Shown here piece after piece: positions 24,942 through 44,457 of a stretch of 51,826 nucleotides of DNA. The stretch is from Gemmatimonadales bacterium. GTDB lineage: Bacteria; Gemmatimonadota; Gemmatimonadetes; Gemmatimonadales; GWC2-71-9. The stretch covers positions 1 through 51,826 of the forward strand of contig JAICJD010000006.1 in assembly GCA_025928645.1 (NCBI GenBank). The letters run 5' to 3'. The number at the start of each line of letters is the position of its first letter. The first letter of the stretch is position 1. Position numbers and translations under genes: made by a program. The notes under the pieces are model-generated. The model saw nothing but the letters and a program-made list of their open reading frames with translations. It had not been told where the DNA came from and did not search any database.

Positions 24942-25919
24942 CTAGTACCGCCGCTCCCACGCCCGGTACCCGATCGCCGCGTTGAGCCAGCGAACCAGCG
25001 GCACCAGCGCCGAGAAGTCGCGCGCCAGTGCGGCGGGGAGCCGCGGGCTTCGCACCTCCGCCTCAGTGAGCGGCCGGTAGGCCGTGAACGAGCGGTACCG
25101 CAGCCAGCGCTCCGCCGGGTGCCCTTGGGCATAGCCGCGGGGCAGCCGGGTCAGCATTGCCTCCGGCGTGATCCGCTTGAAGCGGCGGCGGAATGCCGGC
25201 GCGGCCACGATCCGGTCCAGCTCACCGGGAGACTCCGCGAGCGCTGCTCGAATCTTCTCGAGCGCCGGCCGGGCCGGCATCCACATCCCGCCGGCCACGA
25301 AGCAGTCCCCGTGCGCGAGCTGGACGTAGAGCCCCGCACCGGCGCCCTCGGCGTCCTGTCCGGCGCCCCGGCCTGCGTCGGCGTGATAGAACTGGCAGGC
25401 CGCGTTCGTCTTGTAGGGCGACTTGTCCTTCGAAAAGCGGACGTCGCGGTGGATCCGGAAGATCGACCGACGGGGGTCGCCGGTGAGCTCGGGGGCGATC
25501 CGGGCGAGCCGCACGTCCATTTCCTCCACCAGCGCGCGGAGCGGCTGGCGGACCTCGGTCTCGTACACGGCGCGATGCCGCTCGAACCAGTCGCGTCGGT
25601 TGTTCCGGGCGAGCCGTCGGAGGAACGCCAGCGCTCCCGGACCGAAGCCGCGGAACTCGGCGGAACCGACGGGCGTGGATCGATGCACCAGCTGCTCTTT
25701 CAGGTGTCTCGGCATGCGCTTGATGACCAGCTCGCGGCGGAGCGCGGCACCCTGGTCGGCGGCGGTTTCGACATGCACCACGCGCACCGGCCGCCGTGCC
25801 CGGGTGTAGCTCGCGCCCCGGCCGGCGTTGTGCGCGGCTTCCCGGCGGGCCGGGTCGGTGGTGATGCCCGTGTAGAGGGTGCCGTCGCCGCAGCGGGCGA
25901 GGTAGACGTGCCAGGTCAT
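24942..25919 (-). CDS. GIY-YIG nuclease domain fused to DUF2461 domain
   Basis: 325 residues. Residues about 3-80 are a GIY-YIG domain of the UPF0213/YhbQ type: VYLARCGDGTLYTGITTDP (GIY becomes VYL, YIG becomes YTG), the conserved Arg near 25-26, HNAGRGASYTRARRPVRVV and the metal-binding Glu in ALRRELVIKR (about 63). From about 87 a full DUF2461 domain follows (FGPGALAFLRRLARNNRRDW, RIHRDVRFSKDKSPYKTN, GLYVQLAHGDCFVAGGMW, RGYAQGHPAERWLRYRS). Both are normally separate proteins. GIY-YIG domains cut DNA; DUF2461 is of unknown function. A single continuous frame of 978 bases with no stop joins them, and a junction of only about 8 residues links the domains. Confidence 0.9.
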   Translation of the reverse strand: MTWHVYLARCGDGTLYTGITTDPARREAAHNAGRGASYTRARRPVRVVHVETAADQGAALRRELVIKRMPRHLKEQLVHRSTPVGSAEFRGFGPGALAFLRRLARNNRRDWFERHRAVYETEVRQPLRALVEEMDVRLARIAPELTGDPRRSIFRIHRDVRFSKDKSPYKTNAACQFYHADAGRGAGQDAEGAGAGLYVQLAHGDCFVAGGMWMPARPALEKIRAALAESPGELDRIVAAPAFRRRFKRITPEAMLTRLPRGYAQGHPAERWLRYRSFTAYRPLTEAEVRSPRLPAALARDFSALVPLVRWLNAAIGYRAWERRY

Positions 25920-26003
25920 GGGCGTGGCATGGATTGTAATGCCGTGGCCCCCTTTCTATCTTCGGCACTACCCCCCGTGAACACGCCGAGCTCGCACGTG
26001 ACG

Positions 26004-27662
26004 ATGCCCGATCGCCGCCGGGTCGGCCGCAGCACTCTGCCCGACCAGCGCACCCTCTTGTCCTGGCTGTTCGTCGGGCGCCTGGTGCTGGCGGTCGGTA
26101 TCCTGCTGGGCGCGGGGCTGGTCTGGACCGAGCGGCCGCGCGAGTCGTTCCTCGTCACCGTGTCGGTGGTCGTGGCTCTCGTCATCACGGGCTACGGCGC
26201 CTGGCACGTCTTTCTCCGCTCGCGCACGCCGGGCAACGGCTTCCTCATGGTGCAGGCCCTGGTGGATCTCGGGGTCGTGACCACCATCGTTCACTTTGTG
26301 GGGCAGCCGCAGTCGGCCTTCCCCGCGTTGTACGTCCTGGCCGTGGCGGCCTACGCGCTGCTCATGCCGCCCGCGTGGGGCGCGCTCACCGCGATCTGCG
26401 CTTCGGCCCTGTTCCTGGGCGATGCCTTCATCACCCGGGCGGGCGCGCCCGACACGGCATTCTGGGCCCAGGTGGTGGTGTTCAACGTGGTCTTCGCCAT
26501 CGTGGCGGTGCTCGGGCACCGGCTTCGCGAAGCGGGCATGGAGCAGGAGACGCTGGCCACCGAGCTCAAGCGGGTCCGGCTCGAGGCCGACGACATCCTG
26601 CGCAACATCCGCTCGGGTGTGCTCACGGTGGATGGCGTGGGCCGGCTCGCCTTCATCAACCCCACGGGGCAGAGGCTGCTGGATCTGGATGGTGACGGGC
26701 TCATCGGGATGCCGGTGCTGGACCAGCTCAAGGGACGCTCGACGGAGCTCTGGGCGGCGGTGGTCGCGGGCATCCGGAACGGCCGGAAGATCAGCCGCGG
26801 CGAAGGCATGGTGACGCACCAGGGCGGCCGGATCTTCCCCATCGGGCTCAGCACCACCACGTTCCGCCAGGAGGCGCAGGAGGCGCCCTCGGTGACCGCC
26901 ATCTTTACCGACATCTCGGACCTCAAGGAAGTCCAGGAGCTGCAGGCCCGGGCGGAGCGGCTCGAATCGGTGGCCGCGCTGAGCGCGTCGCTGGCGCACG
27001 AGATCCGGAACCCGCTGGCGTCCATCCGGAGCTCGGTCGAGCAGCTCGCCCGCTCGAAGCACGCGGACGACGACGAGAGGTTCCTCGCCGGGCTGATCGT
27101 GCGCGAGAGCGACCGGCTGAGCCGGCTCCTGAGCGAGTTCCTCGACTTCGCCCGGGTCCGCGCCACCCATCTGGTGCCGATCGATCTGCACGCCGTGACG
27201 GTCGCGGCGGTCCGGCTCATCCGGGCGCATCCCGACTGCCGGGCCGACGCCGCGATCACCGTCGAGGGCGGCCGGACTATCCTCGACGGCGACGAAGACC
27301 TGCTCCATCGGGTGATCGCGAACTTGGTGCTCAACGCCGTGCAGAACGCCCGGGGCCCCATCCGGATCGTGGTGAGCGTGACTGCCGTGCAGGGTGCCGA
27401 GATCCCGCACGGCACCAACTTGGAGCACGCGGTCCGGCTTCAGGTGCGGGACGACGGGCCGGGCATTCCCGCGGATATCCGCGAGCGGCTGTTCGATCCG
27501 TTCGTCTCCGGCCGTCCGGGCGGGAGCGGGCTCGGCCTCGCCATCGTGCAGCGGGCCGTCCAGGCGCACCGGGGACTGGTGCTGGTGGACTCCGGCCCCG
27601 GCGGGGGCACGACCTTCACTATCTTTCTGCCCGCCAAAATGATGGCGGAGGATGCCGCATGA
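26004..27662 (+). CDS. pilS: PilS-like sensor histidine kinase
   Basis: 552 residues from ATG 26004; a GTG at 25977 would add 9 residues and neither has a clear ribosome-binding site. Several membrane segments occupy about residues 18-175 (LFVGRLVLAVGILLGAGLVW, FLVTVSVVVALVITGYGAW, FPALYVLAVAAYALLMPPAW, AQVVVFNVVFAIVAVLG), as in PilS. A PAS domain follows (LRNIRSGVLTVDGVGRLAFI), then HisKA (ASLAHEIRNPLASIRSS) and HATPase (RVIANLVLNAVQNARG, VRDDGPGIPADIRERLFDPF, GSGLGLAIVQ). Its stop overlaps the pilR start (ATGA). In other bacteria PilS controls pilin transcription through PilR and sigma-54; the pilin gene is 4.8 kb downstream here, with a sigma-54-like promoter. Confidence 0.88.
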   Translation: MPDRRRVGRSTLPDQRTLLSWLFVGRLVLAVGILLGAGLVWTERPRESFLVTVSVVVALVITGYGAWHVFLRSRTPGNGFLMVQALVDLGVVTTIVHFVGQPQSAFPALYVLAVAAYALLMPPAWGALTAICASALFLGDAFITRAGAPDTAFWAQVVVFNVVFAIVAVLGHRLREAGMEQETLATELKRVRLEADDILRNIRSGVLTVDGVGRLAFINPTGQRLLDLDGDGLIGMPVLDQLKGRSTELWAAVVAGIRNGRKISRGEGMVTHQGGRIFPIGLSTTTFRQEAQEAPSVTAIFTDISDLKEVQELQARAERLESVAALSASLAHEIRNPLASIRSSVEQLARSKHADDDERFLAGLIVRESDRLSRLLSEFLDFARVRATHLVPIDLHAVTVAAVRLIRAHPDCRADAAITVEGGRTILDGDEDLLHRVIANLVLNAVQNARGPIRIVVSVTAVQGAEIPHGTNLEHAVRLQVRDDGPGIPADIRERLFDPFVSGRPGGSGLGLAIVQRAVQAHRGLVLVDSGPGGGTTFTIFLPAKMMAEDAA

Positions 27663-29038
27663 GCTACAAGCCGTCCGTGCTGGTGGTCGACGACGAGTCG
27701 GGGATCCTCGATACCCTCCGAATCCTACTCCGGAACGAGGGGTTCGAGGTGACCACGGCCCAGGGCGGGAAGGCCGGCCTGGAGCAGATCCGCTCGGGGA
27801 CCCACGATATCATCCTCTCGGACGTGCGGATGCCCCAGGTGAGCGGGCTCGATATCCTGAACGCCGCGCGCGAGCAGGACCCGATGACGCCGGTCATCCT
27901 GATGACCGCGCAGGCCTCGCTCCAGAGCGCCATCGGCGCGGTCAACTCGGGCGCCTTCTACTATATCCAGAAGCCATTCAGCAACGACGAGCTGGTGGCG
28001 ATCCTGCGCCGCGCCTGCGAGTTCCGCCAGGTGCGGGTGGAGAACAAGCAGCTCAAGCAGGAGATCCGCCGGCGCGACAAGGCGACCGTCACCCGGCCGA
28101 TCGGCAAGTCGAAGCGGTTCCTCGAGGTCCTGAAGCTCGCGGAGCACGTGTCGCCCACGGACTCGACCGTGCTGATCCAGGGGGAGAGCGGCACCGGCAA
28201 GGAGGTCATCGCCCGCTACGTGCACAACCTCTCGAACCGGACCGAAGGGCCGTTCCTCTCGATCAACTGCGGCGCGCTGCCGGAGAACCTGCTTGAGAGC
28301 GAGCTGTTCGGGCACGTGAAGGGCAGCTTCACCGGCGCCGTCCGTGACAAGCAGGGGCTGTTCGCCGCGGCGCGCGGGGGGAGCTTCTTCCTCGACGAGG
28401 TCGGCGAGATGCCGCCGTCGCTCCAGGTGAAGCTGCTCCGCGTGCTGCAGGAGCGGGAGGCCATCCCGGTGGGCGCCACCGAGCCGATCCCGGTGGACGT
28501 ACGCATCATCGCGGCCACCAACCGCGACCTCGAGGAGGAGATCCGGCGCGGCAACTTCCGTTCGGACCTGTTCTACCGTCTCAACGTCATCGCCCTCAAC
28601 CTGCCGCCGCTGCGCGACCGACGCGACGACCTGCTGCTCCTGATCGAGTCCTTCCTCCAGCAGCTCGCCGTGGAGGCGGGAACCGAGCCCAAGGCGCTGG
28701 CCTCGGAGGCGCTCGACGCGGTGATGGTCTACGAATGGCCCGGCAACGTGCGCGAACTGGAGAACGCGCTCGAGCACGCCACCGTGCTGAGCCGGGGCAC
28801 GCTGATCGAGGCCTCGGCGCTGCCCGAGCGGATCACCAAGCGGCGGAAAGAGCCGCTCGTGGCCGAGCGGTCCTACCGCAATCCGACGCTCGAGGTGATC
28901 GAGCGGGCCTATATCATGTGGGTCTTGCAGGCCGAAGGCGGGAACAAGACGCGCGCGGCCGAGGTGCTCGGCATCGACCCGAGCACGCTGTACCGCAAGC
29001 TGAGCCGCTACGAGGAGCAGGTGGAGGTGAAGGCGTAG
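27659..29038 (+). CDS. pilR: PilR-like NtrC-family sigma-54 activator
   Basis: 459 residues. The receiver has phospho-acceptor Asp55 in ILSDVRMPQVSG and conserved Lys in YYIQKPFSN. The AAA+ domain (about 145-385) has Walker A GESGTGKE (175-182), the sigma-54 contact loop GSFTGA (222-227, where most activators have GAFTGA) and Walker B GGSFFLDEVGEM. The Fis-type HTH is at the C-terminus (KTRAAEVLGIDPSTLYRKL). It is translationally coupled to pilS through ATGA and probably drives sigma-54 promoters such as the one at 32344. Its stop lies 6 bp from that of a convergent gene. Confidence 0.92.
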   Translation: MSYKPSVLVVDDESGILDTLRILLRNEGFEVTTAQGGKAGLEQIRSGTHDIILSDVRMPQVSGLDILNAAREQDPMTPVILMTAQASLQSAIGAVNSGAFYYIQKPFSNDELVAILRRACEFRQVRVENKQLKQEIRRRDKATVTRPIGKSKRFLEVLKLAEHVSPTDSTVLIQGESGTGKEVIARYVHNLSNRTEGPFLSINCGALPENLLESELFGHVKGSFTGAVRDKQGLFAAARGGSFFLDEVGEMPPSLQVKLLRVLQEREAIPVGATEPIPVDVRIIAATNRDLEEEIRRGNFRSDLFYRLNVIALNLPPLRDRRDDLLLLIESFLQQLAVEAGTEPKALASEALDAVMVYEWPGNVRELENALEHATVLSRGTLIEASALPERITKRRKEPLVAERSYRNPTLEVIERAYIMWVLQAEGGNKTRAAEVLGIDPSTLYRKLSRYEEQVEVKA

Positions 29039-32104: not shown

Positions 32105-32430
32105 GGGCGGCGGGGCGGGCAAGAAGCATGCAACCGGTGGCACCGTTTCTGAAACTGGGGCGCTCGGGCGCGAGAAATTGGTCCCGGCCGCCGCCGGGCC
32201 CGTGCGCATGTTCCCGTGGGCGGCCGCCGGGAATCCACTCTTGCAAAATCCGCCTGGCCGGTCCGCCGCGGGGCCCCCGAGGCGCGATGCAAGCAATGGT
32301 TAAGTGGCTACAAGGCCACGCGTTTTGCCGGCAGGAGGGGGGGTGGCATCAGTGTTGCCTTACCGGGGGCCGGCACGATCGGAGACCGCGATCATGGCCG
32401 CAGTCAACCAGGCATTCAACCGGAGGAAGC
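32105..32430. other. Divergent regulatory region upstream of the first pilin gene
   Basis: 326 bp between the MFS/spermidine synthase-like gene (leftward) and the first pilin gene (rightward). Contents: a sigma-54-like promoter at 32344-32358; on the minus strand a one-mismatch copy of CTTGCAGCCAC at 32304-32314; and a strong CGGAGGA site at 32421-32427. No additional coding pattern is seen. Confidence 0.6.
32344..32358 (+). promoter_or_regulatory. Candidate sigma-54 promoter of the pilin gene
   Basis: TGGCAT-CAGTG-TTGC matches TGGCAC-N5-TTGC at 9 of 10 fixed positions with correct spacing of the -24 GG and -12 GC. Predicted start of transcription near 32370 leaves a leader of about 60 bases before the ATG at 32431. 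Confidence 0.72.
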
Positions 32431-32853
32431 ATGTCGAACCGTAAGGGCTTTACCCTGATCGAGCTTCTGATCGTGGTCGTCATCATCGGCATTCTGGCGG
32501 CCATCGCGATCCCGAAGTTCGCGAACACGAAGGAGAAGGCGGTACTGGCCAGCATGAAGTCGGACCTGCGCAACCTGGTGACGGCGGAAGAGGGCTTCTT
32601 CTCGGATAACCAGGACTACGCGACCACGCTGGGCGCCAATCAGGTGAACGGCAACGGCGGCGGCGGGACGGTGGCCTTCGTGCCGTCGGCCAACAACGCC
32701 ATCACGGTGACCCGTGAGAGCGCGGGCGGCTGGTCGGCCGAGGTTACTAACCCGACCCTCAAGGGCGCGATCAAGACCTGCGGCATCTTCGTGGGCTCGG
32801 GCGCGGCCCCGAACGGCGCGGTGAAGGCCGAGGGCGCGCCGGCCTGTTACTGA
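32431..32853 (+). CDS. Type IV pilin, likely major subunit
   Basis: 140 residues with a CGGAGGA site 4 bases before the ATG. The short leader MSNRKG is followed by the prepilin cleavage site G/F and the hydrophobic helix FTLIELLIVVVIIGILAAIA, the class III signal processed by prepilin peptidase PilD. The helix continues KFANTKEKAVLASMKSDLRN. Two Cys near the end (TCGIFVGSG and GAPACY) would form the disulfide D-loop typical of pilins. It is a close paralogue of the next gene, matching it at both ends. A hairpin downstream may let this gene be expressed more strongly than the rest. Being the first gene after the promoter, it is the likely major subunit (inference). Confidence 0.92.
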   Translation: MSNRKGFTLIELLIVVVIIGILAAIAIPKFANTKEKAVLASMKSDLRNLVTAEEGFFSDNQDYATTLGANQVNGNGGGGTVAFVPSANNAITVTRESAGGWSAEVTNPTLKGAIKTCGIFVGSGAAPNGAVKAEGAPACY

Positions 32854-33407: not shown

Positions 33408-34551
33408 GTGCCTCGCCGGTCGTTGCGCACCGAGCTGCTCGTCAGCCTCGGTTTTGTCACATCCGCCGCCGTCATCGTGGTGGGCGTCACGACGGTGGTG
33501 CTGAACGGCGGCGACGTCCGGGAGACGCTCTGGCCGCTCATCGCGCTCTGGCTAGGCAGCACGGCCGTATTCGTCCTGTTCGGTGCGTATGTGGTGCACC
33601 GGTCGGTGGTCCGGCCGCTCACGGTTCTCGCCGCCGAAGCCGATGATCTCGCCGCGGGCGCGGCCCCGAGCGCCGCGCCGACGTACGAGACGGCGGAGCT
33701 GGACCTGCTGAGCGCCCGGTACCGGGCCATGGCCGAGGACCTGCTGGACGCGCAGAGCCACATCGTTCGGGTCGAGAAGCTCGCCGGGATCGGCCAGCTC
33801 GCCGCCGGTGTGGCCCACGAAGTGCGGAACCCCTTGGGCGCCATCGCCACCTATACCGAGGTGCTGCAGCGGCGCGGGGCCGATCCGGCGGTGACGGGAG
33901 AGATCCGCCGGTCGATCGACCGTATCGAGCGCATCGTCCAGGGCCTGGTCGACTACGGGCGGCCACCGGCCGCCGCGTCGGGCGCGGTCACCGAGGTCAC
34001 GGACCTCAACGCCACGGCGCGCACCGTGGCCGACTTCCTCGAGGCGCAGGGCATGTTCCGCGGCCACGAGGTGGCAGTCCAGCTCGACCCGTCCGCGCCG
34101 CCGGTCGCCGGCAACCGGCACGCGCTCGAGCAGGTCGTGGTCAACCTTGTGGCCAACGCCTGCCAGGCGGCGCCGGGTGGACGGATCCGGATCGGGACGC
34201 TGCGCATGGCGTTCGAAGCCCGCACCCACGACTCGCGGGCATCCGATGCGGGAAACGCCGGGCCTCGGCCGGCGCGGCGCTGGTCGACGCGGCCTCGCCG
34301 GCCCGAGCTGCCGGCCGGCAGCCCCGGCGTCCTCCTGTTCGTGGCCGACAGCGGGCCCGGCGTCCCCGAGGCGCACCGGGAGCGGATCTTCGATCCGTTC
34401 TTCACCACGAAGGAGCCGGGGCAGGGCACCGGGCTGGGGCTCGCCATCGTGGCCCGAACGGTGCACGAGAGCGGCGGGGTCGTGTGGGTGGACCGGGCGC
34501 GGGAGGGTGGAGCGGTGTTCAAGGTCTTCTTACCACTAGCGGGTGGTTCCG

Positions 34552-34571
<20 letters not shown>
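33408..34571 (+). CDS. Membrane sensor histidine kinase
   Basis: 387 residues from GTG at 33408. Two membrane segments (about 9-32 and 43-63) flank a very short periplasmic loop, so it is unlikely to bind a large external ligand. A HAMP-like stretch follows (VRPLTVLAAEADDLAAG). HisKA has His137 in LAAGVAHEVRNPLGAI; HATPase has LEQVVVNLVANACQAAPGG, VADSGPGVPEAHRERIFDPF and GTGLGLAIVARTV. An Arg/Pro-rich insert of about 40 residues (ARTHDSRASDAGNAGPRPAR and on) sits between the N and G1 boxes, which is unusual. Its 3' end overlaps the regulator start by 20 bases, so the two are a cognate pair. Confidence 0.88.
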
Positions 34572-35928
<1,357 letters not shown>

Positions 35929-37916: not shown

Positions 37917-39107
37917 ATGCGATACCCGAGACACTCCGACGAGCGAGGTATGGCGCTGGCCGTGGCCATCTTCGCGCTCGTGGTGATCGGCGCGCTCGTG
38001 GCGGGCGCCTTCTACGCCAGCACGCTGGAGCAGCGCACCGGTCGAAACTCGCTGTATGCGTCGGAGGCAGCGCAGATCGCCGAGGCCGGGCCGATGGCGG
38101 TGCTGGCGAACTGGGACTCATACGCCCTCAACAACACTGGCGTCGGATCCAAAGTCGACCTGGGGACGACGGCGGTGCCGAACTGGCCCCACTCCTCGTA
38201 CCAGACCACCGCCACGCGGCTCAACACTCAGCTCTTCCTGATTACGAGCCTCGGGAGCCTGACCGATGCCTCGGGCAATCTTCTCGCCCAGAACTCCGTG
38301 GCGACGATCGCGCGGCTCAACTTCGTCAAGGCGACGGCAAAGGCCGCGGTCACCGTCACCAAGCCGATCACGTTCAACGGCAACGCATTCGGGGTTATCG
38401 GGAACGACTCGATGCCGAAGGGCTGGGACAAGGACAGCTTGGGCAACGCCGATCCGAACTGCAGCGTCGGAGACAACCAGGCCGGTATTCGGAGTGCTAC
38501 CACCACGGGCGCTAACAACGGCGACCTGACAAAGATCTCGGGCAGCCCGAAGACGGTGGAAAACGATCCGACCGTGAACTCGGACTTTTTCAACGTCTTC
38601 GGCGACGTGTCGTTTGACGACCTCAAGAAAAGCGCCGACATCGTCATCTCGGCGACCACGCCGCAGCAGCCGGCGCCGAGCCTCATGACGACGGCTCCAT
38701 TCCGCTGCAACACGGGGGACATGTTGAATTGGGGCGAGCCCGAGCGCACCGCGGGCTACGTGAAAGCGTGCTCGACCTACTTCCCGATCATTTACGCCAG
38801 TGGCTCGCAGCTCAAGATGGCGAGCAACGCGCGTGGCCAGGGGCTGCTGCTGATCGAGGGCGACCTCGAGATCGCGGGTGGGTTCGAGTTTTACGGTCTG
38901 ATCGTCGCCAAGGGCGGCATCAAGATCTCCGGCACCGGCAACAAGATCAACGGCGCGCTGCTGGCGCAGGACGTCGCCATCGGCGACCAGAACACGATCA
39001 GCGGCAACACCACGCTCCAGTTCTCGTCGTGCGCGCTCAACAAGGCGATTCAGGGTTCGGCCAACGCCAAGCCGCTCACGTATCGGAGCTGGGCGCAGCT
39101 GCACTAG
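37917..39107 (+). CDS. PilX-like pilus assembly protein with large beta-repeat C-terminal domain
   Basis: 396 residues with AGGAG upstream. The N-terminus (RHSDERGMALAVAIFALVVI) matches the PilX N-terminal segment, in which the residue at +1 differs from the usual Phe. The remaining ~350 residues are much longer than classical PilX (about 195). Near the end, alternating short strands (GLLLIEGDLEIAGGFEFYGL, GGIKISGTGNKINGALLAQD, VAIGDQNTISGNTTLQ) look like a right-handed beta-solenoid related to polymer-forming proteins. Cys pairs (PNCSVG, FRCNTG, KACSTY, SSCALN) suggest disulfides. Last gene of the minor pilin operon; no pilY1 follows. Likely exported to the pilus base or tip. Confidence 0.82.
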   Translation: MRYPRHSDERGMALAVAIFALVVIGALVAGAFYASTLEQRTGRNSLYASEAAQIAEAGPMAVLANWDSYALNNTGVGSKVDLGTTAVPNWPHSSYQTTATRLNTQLFLITSLGSLTDASGNLLAQNSVATIARLNFVKATAKAAVTVTKPITFNGNAFGVIGNDSMPKGWDKDSLGNADPNCSVGDNQAGIRSATTTGANNGDLTKISGSPKTVENDPTVNSDFFNVFGDVSFDDLKKSADIVISATTPQQPAPSLMTTAPFRCNTGDMLNWGEPERTAGYVKACSTYFPIIYASGSQLKMASNARGQGLLLIEGDLEIAGGFEFYGLIVAKGGIKISGTGNKINGALLAQDVAIGDQNTISGNTTLQFSSCALNKAIQGSANAKPLTYRSWAQLH

Positions 39108-39133
39108 CTGGGCGCCGGCGAAACGGAATCGGA

Positions 39134-39198
39134 GTCATGCGACCGGAGCGAAGCAGACAAGCGCCAACGCATGGCTCCTTCGCTTCGCTGCGGATGAC
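39134..39198. repeat. REP-like palindromic repeat, copy D (degenerate)
   Basis: The arms begin GTCATGCGACCGGAGCGAAGC and end GCTTCGCTGCGGATGAC, imperfectly inverted. The interior CATGGCTCCTTCGCTTCGCT is shared with copy C at 44557-44622. Confidence 0.7.
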
Positions 39199-39439
39199 CA
39201 CTGGAGCACGCGGCCATCCGGGCCCTTCTCGGACTGCCGGCACCCGGCGCGCATCACCCAGCGGCGCCCACGTTCGCACTCTGCAAGCAGTTGCAGTCGC
39301 CCGATCAGCACCTGCACTCCCGCATCCCGAGAATGGGCTTGCGAAAGAGAAGAAGCAGGGCCTGCCACCCGCCGCGTGACCCCGCCGACATCCGCACTAA
39401 AACGACGCCGCCCAACGACTTCCCCAAGTGCAATTTGTG

Positions 39440-39454
39440 TGGCACATCGGTTGC
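39440..39454 (+). promoter_or_regulatory. Sigma-54 promoter of the pilMNOPQ operon
   Basis: TGGCAC-ATCGG-TTGC matches all 10 fixed positions of the sigma-54 -24/-12 consensus with exact spacing. It lies 95 bp before the pilM start, and no coding gene overlaps it. Confidence 0.82.
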
Positions 39455-39548
39455 CCTCACGCGCCCTGAGTATCCTCATGCCCCGGCGCCGGTGCCGTAT
39501 CCGGAGCGATGCATCAGGCCTGAGCAACCCCTCAACAAGCGGACAACT

Positions 39549-40592
39549 ATGGGACTCTTCGGGCGCAATGCGACGACGGTCGGCCTGGACATCGGCAGCG
39601 GCCTGATCAAGCTCGTCGCGATTTCCCACGGCTCAGGCGGCCCGGTGCTCACCAAGGTGGCGTTCACCTCGGTGGTGAACGACGCCATCGTCGAGGGCGA
39701 GGTCATGGACCCCGGCATCGTCGCGGAGTCCATCAAGGGCCTCCTGGCTTCCGCCGGCATCAAGGGCAAGAAGATCGTCACCGCGGTGGGCGGGCGGGAC
39801 GTGATCATCAAGAAGATCGCGATGGACCGGATGAAGGAGACGGAGGCGCGCGAGGTCATCCGCTGGGAGGCCGAGCAGCACGTGCCGTTCGACATGGACA
39901 ACGTCGAGCTCGACTTCCAGATCCTGGACCCCGAGGCCGATGGTCTCCAGATGCAGGTGCTGCTGGTGGCGGCCAAGCGGGAGCTGGTGGAGCACAAGCT
40001 CGCCCTGCTCTCCGAGGTCGGGCTCGAGGCCAGCATCGTCGACGTCGACTCATTCGCGCTGCACAACGCGTTCGAGGTCAACTATCCCGAGGCCATGACC
40101 GGCGTGGTCGGGCTGGTGAACATCGGCCACGAGACCACCAACATCAACATCCTGGACGACGGCGTCCCGGTGCTCACGCGGGATATCCCGGTCGGCACCC
40201 GGCGCTTCAAGGAAGATCTGCAGCGCGAGCGCGGTCTCTCCGCCGACGAGGCCGACGCGGTGCTTCGCGGCGCCAGTGTCAACGAGGCGCTCGATCAGCT
40301 GCTCGAGTCGCGCGGCGAGGAGCTCGCGGTGGGCATCGAACGGGCGGCCGCATTCCTCCAGTCCGCCAGCCGGTCGGCCGGCGGCATCTCGCGGATCTTC
40401 ACCACCGGCGGCGGGGCGCGAATCCCGCGGCTCAACAAAGTGCTCTCGGACCGGCTGCGCATCCCGGTCCAGCTGGCCAACCCGATCGAGAAGCTGCAGG
40501 TGGCCGACGGCGTCTTCGAGCAGTATCCCGTCGACGAGGTCGCCCCCCTGCTGATGCTGCCGATCGGCCTCGCGCTGCGCAGCGCCGCGTAA
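39549..40592 (+). CDS. pilM: Type IV pilus assembly protein PilM
   Basis: 347 residues. Actin-like ATPase: the N-terminal phosphate loop is VGLDIGSGLIKLVAI, followed by EVIRWEAEQHVPFDMDNVEL, VDVDSFALHNAF, VNIGHETTNINILDDG and the late FTTGGGARIPRLNKVLSDRL. PilM sits in the cytoplasm and binds the N-terminal peptide of PilN, linking the inner-membrane platform to the motor ATPases. First gene of the pilMNOPQ operon, 25 bp before pilN, behind a perfect sigma-54 promoter. Confidence 0.95.
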   Translation: MGLFGRNATTVGLDIGSGLIKLVAISHGSGGPVLTKVAFTSVVNDAIVEGEVMDPGIVAESIKGLLASAGIKGKKIVTAVGGRDVIIKKIAMDRMKETEAREVIRWEAEQHVPFDMDNVELDFQILDPEADGLQMQVLLVAAKRELVEHKLALLSEVGLEASIVDVDSFALHNAFEVNYPEAMTGVVGLVNIGHETTNINILDDGVPVLTRDIPVGTRRFKEDLQRERGLSADEADAVLRGASVNEALDQLLESRGEELAVGIERAAAFLQSASRSAGGISRIFTTGGGARIPRLNKVLSDRLRIPVQLANPIEKLQVADGVFEQYPVDEVAPLLMLPIGLALRSAA

Positions 40593-40617: not shown

Positions 40618-41355
40618 ATGATCAACGTCAATCTGCGCCCCGACCTCAAGCGCAAGCGCGCCCGCCGCCCCGTCACGGGTGCGCTGGAGGGGTTCCGCGG
40701 GCTGGGCAGCAAGATCAAGGACCCCGTCCTGCTCGTCGCCGTGCTGAGCTGGGTCGGCGTGCTGGGCTGGCTCGCCTTCGTCTTCGTCGGCACCACGCGG
40801 GAGCTGAGCGCGCTCACCCCGCAGCTCGAGCACAGCCGGGCCGAAAACCGGCGGTTCAAGGCCTTCCTCACCGAGAAGCGGCGCCAGGAAACGGTGCGCG
40901 ACTCGCTGGTGGCGCAGATCACCACCATCCGTACCGTCGATGGTGACCGCTACGTGTGGCCGCACCTGCTCGACGAGGTCACCCGCGCGCTCCCGGCCTA
41001 CACCTGGCTGGTGGATCTCGGGCCTGCCAGCGCCAACTCCAGCGCGCATCCGGCCGCCCCGGCGCCCGCCGCGGCCCCGGCCGCCAAGGGCGCGGGAGCC
41101 AAGGACACCGCGGGCCCCGCGCCCGCGCCGGCCATCCAGTTCGAGGTGAACGGGCGCACGGTGGACATCCAGGCCTACACCCGCTTTCTCCGCCAGCTCG
41201 AGGCCTCGCCCTGGATCACCGACGTCACGCCGGTCTCGGCGCAGACGGTGGTGGAGAAGGACCGGCCGGTCACCGCGTTCACCATCCGCGGCACGTTCAA
41301 GCAGGCGGATTCGGCGTACATCAAGACGGTTCCCCTCAGCCAGTCGGTGAGGTAG
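40618..41355 (+). CDS. pilN: Type IV pilus assembly protein PilN
   Basis: 245 residues. The cytoplasmic N-terminus INVNLRPDLKRK carries the PilM-binding motif. One membrane segment (about 40-60, LLVAVLSWVGVLGWLAFVF), a coiled coil (LEHSRAENRRFKAFLTEKRR) and a periplasmic domain with FLRQLEASPWITDVTPVSAQ follow. An Ala/Pro-rich insert (about residues 141-175, including SSAHPAAPAPAAAPAA) interrupts the periplasmic domain, making it longer than usual. Forms the inner-membrane alignment complex with PilO and PilP. Confidence 0.93.
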   Translation: MINVNLRPDLKRKRARRPVTGALEGFRGLGSKIKDPVLLVAVLSWVGVLGWLAFVFVGTTRELSALTPQLEHSRAENRRFKAFLTEKRRQETVRDSLVAQITTIRTVDGDRYVWPHLLDEVTRALPAYTWLVDLGPASANSSAHPAAPAPAAAPAAKGAGAKDTAGPAPAPAIQFEVNGRTVDIQAYTRFLRQLEASPWITDVTPVSAQTVVEKDRPVTAFTIRGTFKQADSAYIKTVPLSQSVR

Positions 41356-41358
41356 CCC

Positions 41359-41988
41359 ATGGCCCTCTCGTCGCAGAAGTCCACCCCGGTGCTCGTGATC
41401 CTGCTCGCGGGCCTGGCGGGCTACATCGCCTACTCCGGCGCCGTCATCGACGCCCTCGGTATGTCGGGGCTCGAGGCCCGGAAGCAGCAGGTGGTGGCCG
41501 TCAAGGATACGATCGCGCGGCTCGACGCGGCCACCGACAGCGCCAAGAAGGAGCTGGCGCGCGGCACCGTGGACGATCTCCGCAAGCGCCTCGACACCTA
41601 CCGCGGCAGCCTCGCGCTGCTCCGCCGGCTGGTGCCCGAGCGGAACGAGGTGCCGAACCTGCTCGACGACATCTCCACCCGCAGCAAGATCCGCGGGGTG
41701 ACGCTGTCGCAGGTCGTGCCGCTCCCCGTGGAGTCGGGGCCGGCGCCGTTCGATACCTACAAGTACAACATGTCGGTCATCGGCCACTACGACGAGATCG
41801 GGCAGTTCCTGGCCGACGTCGCGAGCCTGCAGCGGATCATCGTGCCGTACGATCTGGCGGTCGCGCCGGCCAACACCAACGCCGCCAAGGCCATGAACGA
41901 CACCAGCGGCGCGCTGCTCGAGGCCAAGTTCCAGGTTCGCACGTTCGTCAAGTCCCCCAGCGGGGAGGGAGAGGCCAGTGGCACGTAA
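41359..41988 (+). CDS. pilO: Type IV pilus assembly protein PilO
   Basis: 209 residues; 3 bp after pilN. Membrane segment VLVILLAGLAGYIAYSGAVI (about 12-32), coiled coil (ARKQQVVAVKDTIARLDAAT), then a ferredoxin-like periplasmic domain (LRRLVPERNEVPNLLDDIST, YKYNMSVIGHYDEIGQFLAD). Partner of PilN in the alignment complex. Its 3' end overlaps pilP by 11 bases. Confidence 0.94.
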   Translation: MALSSQKSTPVLVILLAGLAGYIAYSGAVIDALGMSGLEARKQQVVAVKDTIARLDAATDSAKKELARGTVDDLRKRLDTYRGSLALLRRLVPERNEVPNLLDDISTRSKIRGVTLSQVVPLPVESGPAPFDTYKYNMSVIGHYDEIGQFLADVASLQRIIVPYDLAVAPANTNAAKAMNDTSGALLEAKFQVRTFVKSPSGEGEASGT

Positions 41989-42616
41989 CGCGTGGTTCGG
42001 GGTCGCGCTCCTCGGCGTCGTGTCCGTCGCCGCCTGCGGCGGCGAGGCCGTCGAGGCCAAGGCGGCCGCGGCCGCCCAGGCGCAGGTCGCCCGGGTGCAC
42101 GCGCGCACCGACAGCCTGGCGCGCGCGCGCGATCAGCATATCGCCGCCGTCTCGGGTGACAGCACCGCGCAGACGTCGCTCGCGGCCACGACGCCCGCCG
42201 CGGTCCCGGCCGCGCGGCCGGCCGGCCGGGACAGCGCCCAGGTCGCGGAAGCCGAGGTGTCCGACTCGGTGCAGCGGGCCCGGGAAATCGAGGTCATGCG
42301 CGAGACGTTCGCGTACGCCGGTGGCACGCGCGACCCGTTCGTCTCGCTCATCACCAAGGATGACAGCGGCATCGAGATCACCAACCTCGATCTGGTGGGC
42401 GTCTACCTCGATCTGCGGACGCCGTCGAACAACGTGATCGTGCTGCGCGAGAAGGGCCAGGAAGGCAAGCGTCACAAGATGCGGGTGGGGGACCAGCTGG
42501 GCCGCTCGCGGCTGGTGCAGATCCGTCCCCGTGAAGCGGTGTTCATGATCGCCGACTTCGGATACGAGCGCCAGGAAACTCTCTCACTGCGGAAGCAGGA
42601 GGTCGAGACGCCATGA
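41978..42616 (+). CDS. pilP: Pilus assembly lipoprotein PilP
   Basis: 212 residues from GTG 41978 inside the end of pilO. Signal with lipobox VAACGGE (Cys about residue 20). An Ala-rich linker is followed by the PilP core: GGTRDPFVSLI, ITNLDLVGVYLD, NVIVLREKGQEGKRHKMRVG and PREAVFMIADFGY. PilP is an inner-membrane lipoprotein that connects PilN/PilO to the PilQ secretin. Overlaps the pilQ start (ATGA). Confidence 0.93.
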   Translation: MARNAWFGVALLGVVSVAACGGEAVEAKAAAAAQAQVARVHARTDSLARARDQHIAAVSGDSTAQTSLAATTPAAVPAARPAGRDSAQVAEAEVSDSVQRAREIEVMRETFAYAGGTRDPFVSLITKDDSGIEITNLDLVGVYLDLRTPSNNVIVLREKGQEGKRHKMRVGDQLGRSRLVQIRPREAVFMIADFGYERQETLSLRKQEVETP

Positions 42617-44457
42617 CGGGCATGTATCGCTGGATGCTGGCCACCGCCGCGGTCCCCTCGCTGCTGCTCGCGAGCCTGTGGACCGCGACTCCCGCCGCGG
42701 CCGAAGGGCCCGGCAGCGGAGAGGTGACCGCCGTGAGCCTGGCGCCCGCCGCCGGCAAGACCGAGATCGTCGTCGCCGTCCGCGGCACGGTCGACGTCCG
42801 TGACTTCCTGCTCACCTCGCCCGACCGGCTGGTGCTCGACCTGGTCGGCGCCACGCTGAGCTCCACCAGCGCGAGCCTCTACGACGGCGTGAAGCGGGGC
42901 AAGGTGGTCAACCTCCGCTACTCGCAGTTCCGTCCCGATGTCGTGCGCCTCGTGGTCGACCTCGAGGGGCCCCAGGCCTACAAGGTGGACCGCTCGACCG
43001 GCGCCGTGCGCGTGACCTTCGACTCGGGAGAGGGCTTCGAGGCCTGGTCCTCGACCAACCCGGGCGCGGGGAGCGCCCAGCGGCCGGATGATCGGACTGT
43101 GTCCGACGCTGCCGTCGCTCAGGCGGTCGCCCCGGTGCGCGAGTCCGTGCGGAAGCCCGAGGTAGGCATCCGCACCGCCTCGATGCTCACCCGGGCCGAG
43201 GAGCCGCGCATCACCGTCACCTGGGACCGCGCCAGCATCGCCGACGTGGTCGCCGGCTTCGCCGCGTTCAGCGGGCGCACCATCATTCTGGGCAAGGACA
43301 TCAAGGGCGAAGTCAACGCCGAGATCAAGAACCAGCCGTGGCCGCAGGCCTTCCAGGCGGTGCTCGCCACCCAGGGCCTGTCGGCCCAGGAGATGCCGGG
43401 CGGCATCATCCGGGTGGACGCGCCCTCGGCGCTCGCCGCGCTCGACTCGCTCGAGCCGCTCGAGACCAGCATCGTCCGAATCAACTATGCCCAGGCCTCG
43501 TCGCTCGCCAAGACGGTCGAGAGCATCCTGACCAAGAACCGCGGCCGGGTCGTGGCCGACACCGGCTCCAACGCGCTCATCCTCACCGAGACGCGGAGCC
43601 GCATCCAGAGCGTCACCGACTTCGTGCGCGGTCTCGACGTGCGCACCCCGCAGCTCTCGATCCAGGCGAAGATCATCTTCGTCGACCGCACCGACATCGA
43701 GCAGCTCGGCCTCAAGTACGATCTGGGCAGCAAGAGCCAGTTCTTCAACAAGGTCGTCCAGCGCTGCTGCGATGCCGAGACCGGCAAACGGTTTCAGCCC
43801 GAGGTCAACGTGGTCGACCTGGGCGGCAACTCGCTCGCCGCCGTCGGCAACGCCGACCAGACGATCACCGGCTCCGCCCTCGACCTGGTGTTCTCGACGG
43901 CCATCGGCGGGTTCAGCCTGACCAGCTTCCTGAGCGCGCTCGAGCGCACCGACCTGGCCGACATCCAGGCCGAGCCGGTCATCTCGACCCTCGACAACCG
44001 CCAGGCCGACATCCTCGTCGGTGAGGAGACGCCGGTCCGCGTCATCGACGCGTCGTCCGCCGGGAGCGGGACGGCTCGCGCCAACGTGCAGTTCAAGGAG
44101 ACCGGCATCCGCCTGACGGTCACGCCGCACGTGACCAACAACCGCCAGGTGCTGATGCAGCTCCACACCGAGCGCTCGGCCATCCAGCCGCTGGCCGCGG
44201 CCGACCTCGGTTTCATCTTCCAGAAGCAGAAGGCCGACAACCAGCTCCTGGTCGAGGACGGTGAGACGGCCGTCATCGGCGGGCTCACGGTTACCCAGGT
44301 CACCAAGACGCACAGCGGCATTCCGCTGCTCGGGGGGCTCCCGATCATCGGCAAGCTGTTCAGCTTCAGCAACGATCAGGAAAATCGGCGCGATCTCATT
44401 ATCTTGGTCACGCCCCGGATCACCGACGACGGCGCCTCGGACCAGCAGCAGCAGTAG
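42613..44457 (+). CDS. pilQ: Type IV pilus secretin PilQ
   Basis: 614 residues. Signal peptide (AVPSLLLASLWTATPAAAEG); one AMIN domain (about 38-135, VAVRGTVDVRDFLLTSPDRL, LVVDLEGPQAYKVDRS) that binds peptidoglycan; N0/STN domain (about 198-275, SIADVVAGFAAFSGRTIILG); N1 domain (about 288-350); and the secretin barrel with VISTLDNRQADILVGEETPV, VTPHVTNNRQVLMQLHTERS and the signature VIGGLTVTQVTKTHSGIPLL then GGLPIIGKLF. A Cys-Cys pair (RCCDAETG) is unusual. It forms the outer-membrane pilus pore. Last gene of the operon, followed by a strong hairpin. Confidence 0.96.
   Translation: MTGMYRWMLATAAVPSLLLASLWTATPAAAEGPGSGEVTAVSLAPAAGKTEIVVAVRGTVDVRDFLLTSPDRLVLDLVGATLSSTSASLYDGVKRGKVVNLRYSQFRPDVVRLVVDLEGPQAYKVDRSTGAVRVTFDSGEGFEAWSSTNPGAGSAQRPDDRTVSDAAVAQAVAPVRESVRKPEVGIRTASMLTRAEEPRITVTWDRASIADVVAGFAAFSGRTIILGKDIKGEVNAEIKNQPWPQAFQAVLATQGLSAQEMPGGIIRVDAPSALAALDSLEPLETSIVRINYAQASSLAKTVESILTKNRGRVVADTGSNALILTETRSRIQSVTDFVRGLDVRTPQLSIQAKIIFVDRTDIEQLGLKYDLGSKSQFFNKVVQRCCDAETGKRFQPEVNVVDLGGNSLAAVGNADQTITGSALDLVFSTAIGGFSLTSFLSALERTDLADIQAEPVISTLDNRQADILVGEETPVRVIDASSAGSGTARANVQFKETGIRLTVTPHVTNNRQVLMQLHTERSAIQPLAAADLGFIFQKQKADNQLLVEDGETAVIGGLTVTQVTKTHSGIPLLGGLPIIGKLFSFSNDQENRRDLIILVTPRITDDGASDQQQQ

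Follow-up and report, generated by a model that had tools for sequence, protein, structure and literature searches.

A conserved sigma-54-type promoter module before pilMNOPQ and pilA in Gemmatimonadales: probable joint control of the pilin and the pilus assembly operon

Sigma-54 in type IV pilus regulation and the Gemmatimonadales pil locus

Sigma-54/PilR control of type IV pili has been described mainly for the pilin gene: the control of pilA by the two-component system PilSR and RpoN has long been known in Pseudomonas aeruginosa, Geobacter sulfurreducens and Xylella fastidiosa (PMC6058289, PMC2725144, PMC3224663). In commensal Neisseria, RpoN control was reported to be absent from pilus genes other than pilE, pilM being one of the genes tested (PMC6528607). 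RpoN2 and PilRX of Xanthomonas oryzae reach pilC as well as pilA, and pilM-Q is not reported in the review that describes this system (PMC8657755). For G. sulfurreducens, a PilR regulon of 54 loci that is unconfirmed by phenotype has been predicted, with in silico sites accompanied by sigma-54 promoters before pilus genes (as described in PMC6058289). The open-access literature that we searched yielded no description of pilMNOPQ being controlled by sigma-54.

The locus analyzed here comes from a group of uncultivated soil Gemmatimonadales (Gemmatimonadota) for which the nearest records are metagenome-assembled, many of them with soil-type isolate names. The window, that is, the whole stretch of 51,826 nucleotides under analysis, encodes the following pilus-related genes:

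25119-27662, + strand: PilS-like histidine kinase with a PilS transmembrane domain
27659-29038, + strand: PilR-like sigma-54 activator with a receiver domain, an AAA+ domain with a GSFTGA loop and a Fis-type helix-turn-helix (HTH)
32431-32853, + strand: major pilin gene pilA, with an N_methyl domain and matches in 102 of 102 family genomes
33408-35928, + strand: second histidine kinase (33408-34571) and sigma-54 response regulator (34543-35928), between pilA and pilM
39549-40592, + strand: pilM, first gene of pilMNOPQ (Pfam PilM_2, 9.5e-64; TIGR01175 above the cut-off)
40618-44457, + strand: pilN (40618), pilO (41359), pilP candidate (41978) and the secretin gene pilQ (42613-44457)

The pilMNOPQ gene order is conserved in relatives, and the pilP candidate is a small gene in the pilP position that has no Pfam match. 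The second kinase-regulator pair within the pilin cluster recalls the Myxococcus xanthus pilus cluster with its two pilRS pairs (PMC6060248).

Promoter elements upstream of pilM and pilA share the same layout:

39322-39355, + strand: distal enhancer-like block before pilM, GCATCCCGAGAATGGGCTTGCGAAAGAGAAGAAG, conserved and at a fixed distance within the window's genus (g1)
39339-39346, + strand: candidate enhancer core TTGCGAAA before pilM, 101 bp before the -24 element
39398-39422, + strand: position of the central dyad TAAS-N3-TTG-N5-CAA-N3-STTA before pilM, 42 bp before TGGC, weak (score 10/14)
39440-39454, + strand: predicted sigma-54 -24/-12 promoter of pilMNOPQ, TGGCAC-ATCGG-TTGC
32241-32251, + strand: candidate distal enhancer core for pilA, TTGCAAAATCC, located 103 bp upstream of the -24 element
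32301-32325, + strand: central dyad of the pilA promoter, TAAGTGGCTACAAGGCCACGCGTTT, at a position kept in most modules
32344-32358, + strand: predicted sigma-54 -24/-12 promoter of pilA, TGGCAT-CAGTG-TTGC, 73 bp before the ATG, with elements matching at 9-10 of 10 positions before pilA of relatives

Conservation of the element and of the upstream block

A sequence-only reading had described a perfect sigma-54 consensus 95 bp before pilM, and this description is accurate: TGGCACATCGGTTGC occupies + strand positions 39440-39454, pilM begins with the ATG at 39549, and all ten fixed bases of TGGCAC-N5-TTGC are matched, the GG and GC dinucleotides lying 10 bp from each other, although the less conserved neighbours (G after TGGCAC and A/T after TTGC) are not. 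Taken alone, this ten-base match is at chance level, the 3.9-Mb genome containing five exact matches versus five for the reversed control pattern. What lifts the element above chance is its conservation among relatives rather than the match itself. We searched for the best -24/-12 candidate in the 450 bp before pilM on both strands of 84 loci; the scan was anchored on GG/GC, so that conservation was judged by position, strand and alignment. On the coding strand, the best score was 10/10 in 18 loci and 9/10 in another 18, whereas on the opposite strand it never exceeded 8/10. The element is present in all nine loci of g1, 61-109 bp before the pilM ATG, and in 13 other genera of the family, 139-287 bp before the ATG. 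Thus, the lack of conservation in close relatives that had been named as grounds for abandoning the prediction was looked for, and the opposite was found.

The substitutions in the element fit the sigma-54 rules, with GG and GC constant and C or T at position six, and the N5 spacer differs between genera (ATCGG, ATGGG, AGCCG, AGGCG and AACGG). In group g34 (L131, L132, L134, L135, L139, L148 and L150), TGGCAC-N5-GTGC is constant at -177/-178 before pilM, possibly a weaker sigma-54 element. The gene for the sigma factor itself, rpoN, is present in one copy in the window's genome (G000:C90, E 8e-64) and was found in 49 of the 50 family genomes of good quality.

Alignment of the g1 loci shows a pilM spacer that is diverged outside two blocks, namely the promoter and an upstream block with the consensus GCATCCCGAGAGACGGCTTGCGAAAGGGAAGATG. 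The CCCGAGA of this block starts exactly 114 bp before the -24 element in the g1 loci where this was measured, with the core TTGCGAAA starting at 101 bp; the distance from the block start to the -24 element is 114-120 bp in other genera. Enhancer-binding proteins typically act from a conserved site some 100 bp ahead of the -24/-12 element. As a sequence feature, the conserved block with its fixed spacing lies where an upstream activator site would be expected, at about 80-150 bp from the start.

Other uses of the spacer were considered and rejected. An Rfam search of 39100-39600 yielded only weak eukaryotic or archaeal chance matches, disfavoring a conserved RNA or riboswitch. A pilM start further upstream, in the frame that is open back to 39291, is disfavored by the conservation of the ATG and the next codons and by the variable upstream spacing among relatives.

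The pilA gene (ATG at 32431) is preceded by TGGCATCAGTGTTGC at 32344-32358 and has the same layout as pilM, with TTGCAAAA located 103 bp before TGGCATcagtgTTGC and a shared, weak 25-bp dyad between them; the modules extend over 32241-32358 at pilA and 39339-39454 at pilM. In most of the 41 modules compared, the dyad starts 42-44 bp before TGGC, between the enhancer core and the promoter, and its mean score is 10.9/14, compared to 8.7 for shuffled sequence. It is clear at many pilA promoters but weak at the window's pilM, where it scores 10 against the same shuffled average. The dyad may be a second activator site or a site for a bending protein.

To delineate the distribution of the module, we searched 102 family genomes with the pattern TTGCRAA-N(88-104)-TGGCAY-N5-TTGC, using the reversed pattern as a control, and obtained 39 matches versus one. 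All but one of the 39 precede pilA or pilM (24 a pilin gene and 14 pilM), the remaining match, in G032, being unrelated. The window's genome contains exactly two matches, at pilA and pilM, and a looser pattern recovered the same two. When 298 genomes sampled across the phylum were searched, the pattern occurred in only one more, which belongs to a different family of the order; this match also precedes a pilin gene. Many family genomes have no strict match even at pilA.

The motor operon pilB-pilT-pilC resides on a separate contig (C82). The 8 kb around it contain no element of at least 9/10, and the 500 bp leading up to pilB contain no enhancer core; the idea that the sigma-54 pilus regulon also takes in the motor genes was accordingly rejected. 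The earlier suggestion that pilus machinery and pilin are switched on together is hence well supported for the pilin and pilMNOPQ (the alignment complex and secretin), the only places in the genome where the module is found, but not for the motor operon. Within these limits, the pilin and pilMNOPQ are probably switched on together in these Gemmatimonadales.

Candidate mechanism, alternative promoters and evolutionary history

Taken as a whole, the explanation that the pilMNOPQ operon has a genuine sigma-54 promoter at 39440-39454, with a predicted start at about 39466, appears very likely to be correct. The notion that the element is an accidental ten-base pattern in a GC-rich intergenic stretch draws on the chance-level number of exact matches in the genome, and is hardly credible given the conservation in 14 genera, the strand bias of 36 to 0 and the pairing with the enhancer core that occurs genome-wide only at pilA and pilM. 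Under the proposed mechanism, an activated PilR-type enhancer-binding protein would bind about 100 bp upstream at the TTGCGAAA block, with the central dyad perhaps as a further site, and would loop to the sigma-54 RNA polymerase parked at -24/-12; opened by the activator, this polymerase would initiate pilM transcription near 39466, in an rpoN-dependent manner. Considering the shared parts at nearly equal spacing in the pilA and pilM promoters, we propose that one signal raises the pilin together with the PilMNOPQ alignment complex and secretin.

PilR (27659-29038), which is encoded with PilS upstream of and close to pilA, is the likely activator of both promoters, judging from its position, its distribution and the constancy of its HTH; because the genome encodes about 13 strong sigma-54 activators, we infer this assignment rather than treat it as settled. 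The promoter could be real and yet respond to the second response regulator (34543-35928), a complete sigma-54 activator from the same locus whose sigma-54-touching loop, GAFTGA, has its counterpart in the GSFTGA of PilR. We consider this unlikely: the second regulator differs in its HTH from genus to genus, whereas PilR has a nearly invariant one in the eight genomes compared, and, in a comparison at the level of loci, the pil loci of G051 and G100 lack the second pair although the pilA module is present there. On these grounds, PilR appears to be the better candidate.

A different possibility is that pilMNOPQ is transcribed mainly by the housekeeping polymerase or by read-through from the upstream minor-pilin genes, and that the sigma-54 element merely adds to this. 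Read-through into pilM is possible because no + strand terminator was found in 39080-39620, and at least 10 related loci have, besides the element, a TTGACA-N17-TAGCGT promoter 60-77 bp before pilM. In all nine g1 genomes, however, the TTGACA promoter is absent, and the sigma-54 element is kept and lies closer to pilM. Within 39080-39620, no sigma-70-like site with -35 and -10 hexamers 16-18 bp apart was detected, the best score before pilM in the window's genome being 7/12; a sigma-70 promoter overlapping the element was also rejected, the best g1 matches being TTGCCC with poor -10 boxes. A mainly housekeeping or read-through origin of pilMNOPQ transcripts is therefore somewhat improbable, and control through the sigma-54 element remains our preferred reading.

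The distribution of the two promoter types is suggestive of the order of events. In more distant genera, pilM is preceded by a TTGACA promoter of the housekeeping type, or by no recognized promoter, and the sigma-54 element is absent; intermediate genera have both promoters, with TTGACA-N17-TAGCGT at the distance given above; and in g1, and apparently also in g11, g14 and g16, the housekeeping promoter was not found. In the PilM tree, the loci with the strict element belong to one clade of 37 rows (support 100/99), within which g25 and g34 alone lack the strict element, g34 retaining the variant. The tree was rooted by midpoint, so that we infer the direction of change; the simplest reading would be a single gain of the sigma-54 module at pilM, after which several genera, including the window's, lost the housekeeping promoter, a direction supported by the wider spread of the pilA module. 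We would give roughly even chances to the full scenario, namely, that in one clade the PilR/sigma-54 module of the pilin was gained once before pilMNOPQ and that the housekeeping pilM promoter subsequently disappeared from several genera, including that of the window, leaving a dedicated two-operon sigma-54 regulon for all-or-none pilus assembly, with the motor genes outside.

Two further features of the housekeeping-type promoters were observed. In L085, L088, L092, L098 and other loci, a palindrome CTCAAGC-N9-GCTTGA lies over the -35 box of the housekeeping pilM promoter, 60-110 bp before pilM, as if a further regulator acts there. In L101-L118 and relatives, the housekeeping-type promoter TTGACAGGATAAGGGGCGGGGCTTACTGT, about 80 bp before pilM, is kept almost letter for letter, including the spacer, in several distant genera.

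Relationship to known pilus regulons

The predicted switch is of a known kind, placed on a new operon: sigma-54/PilR control of the pilin is textbook knowledge, and the new aspects are its apparent extension to pilMNOPQ and the accompanying loss of the housekeeping promoter in the genus. This family-specific, apparently once-gained extension, along with the two-promoter intermediates, would be an example of the stepwise rewiring of a pilus regulon. The block with the core TTGCRAAA provides a precise candidate for the PilR operator, and the result bears on how pili are regulated in a phylum of which only six species have been cultured (PMC10581226).

The arrangement resembles the PilSR/RpoN systems in the -24/-12 element before the major pilin gene, the PilSR pair encoded nearby and the upstream enhancer; unlike in those systems, where pilA is the demonstrated target, the module is also found before pilMNOPQ, and the proposed core TTGCRAAA is unlike the hallmarks quoted in PMC6058289 for PilR of P. 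aeruginosa (TGT-N11-AGA and GTCT). As in the RpoN/Nps/Npa system of Neisseria (PMC6528607), sigma-54 and a two-component activator would turn on the pilin gene, the difference being that pilM is predicted to be RpoN controlled here. As reviewed for Xanthomonas RpoN2/PilRX (PMC8657755), sigma-54 control extends beyond the pilin to pilus assembly, reaching pilC there, as it is predicted to reach pilMNOPQ here. Finally, in silico sigma-54/PilR-type sites before pilus genes are shared with the predicted G. sulfurreducens regulon, but the latter comprises 54 loci, whereas the strict module described here marks two places per genome.
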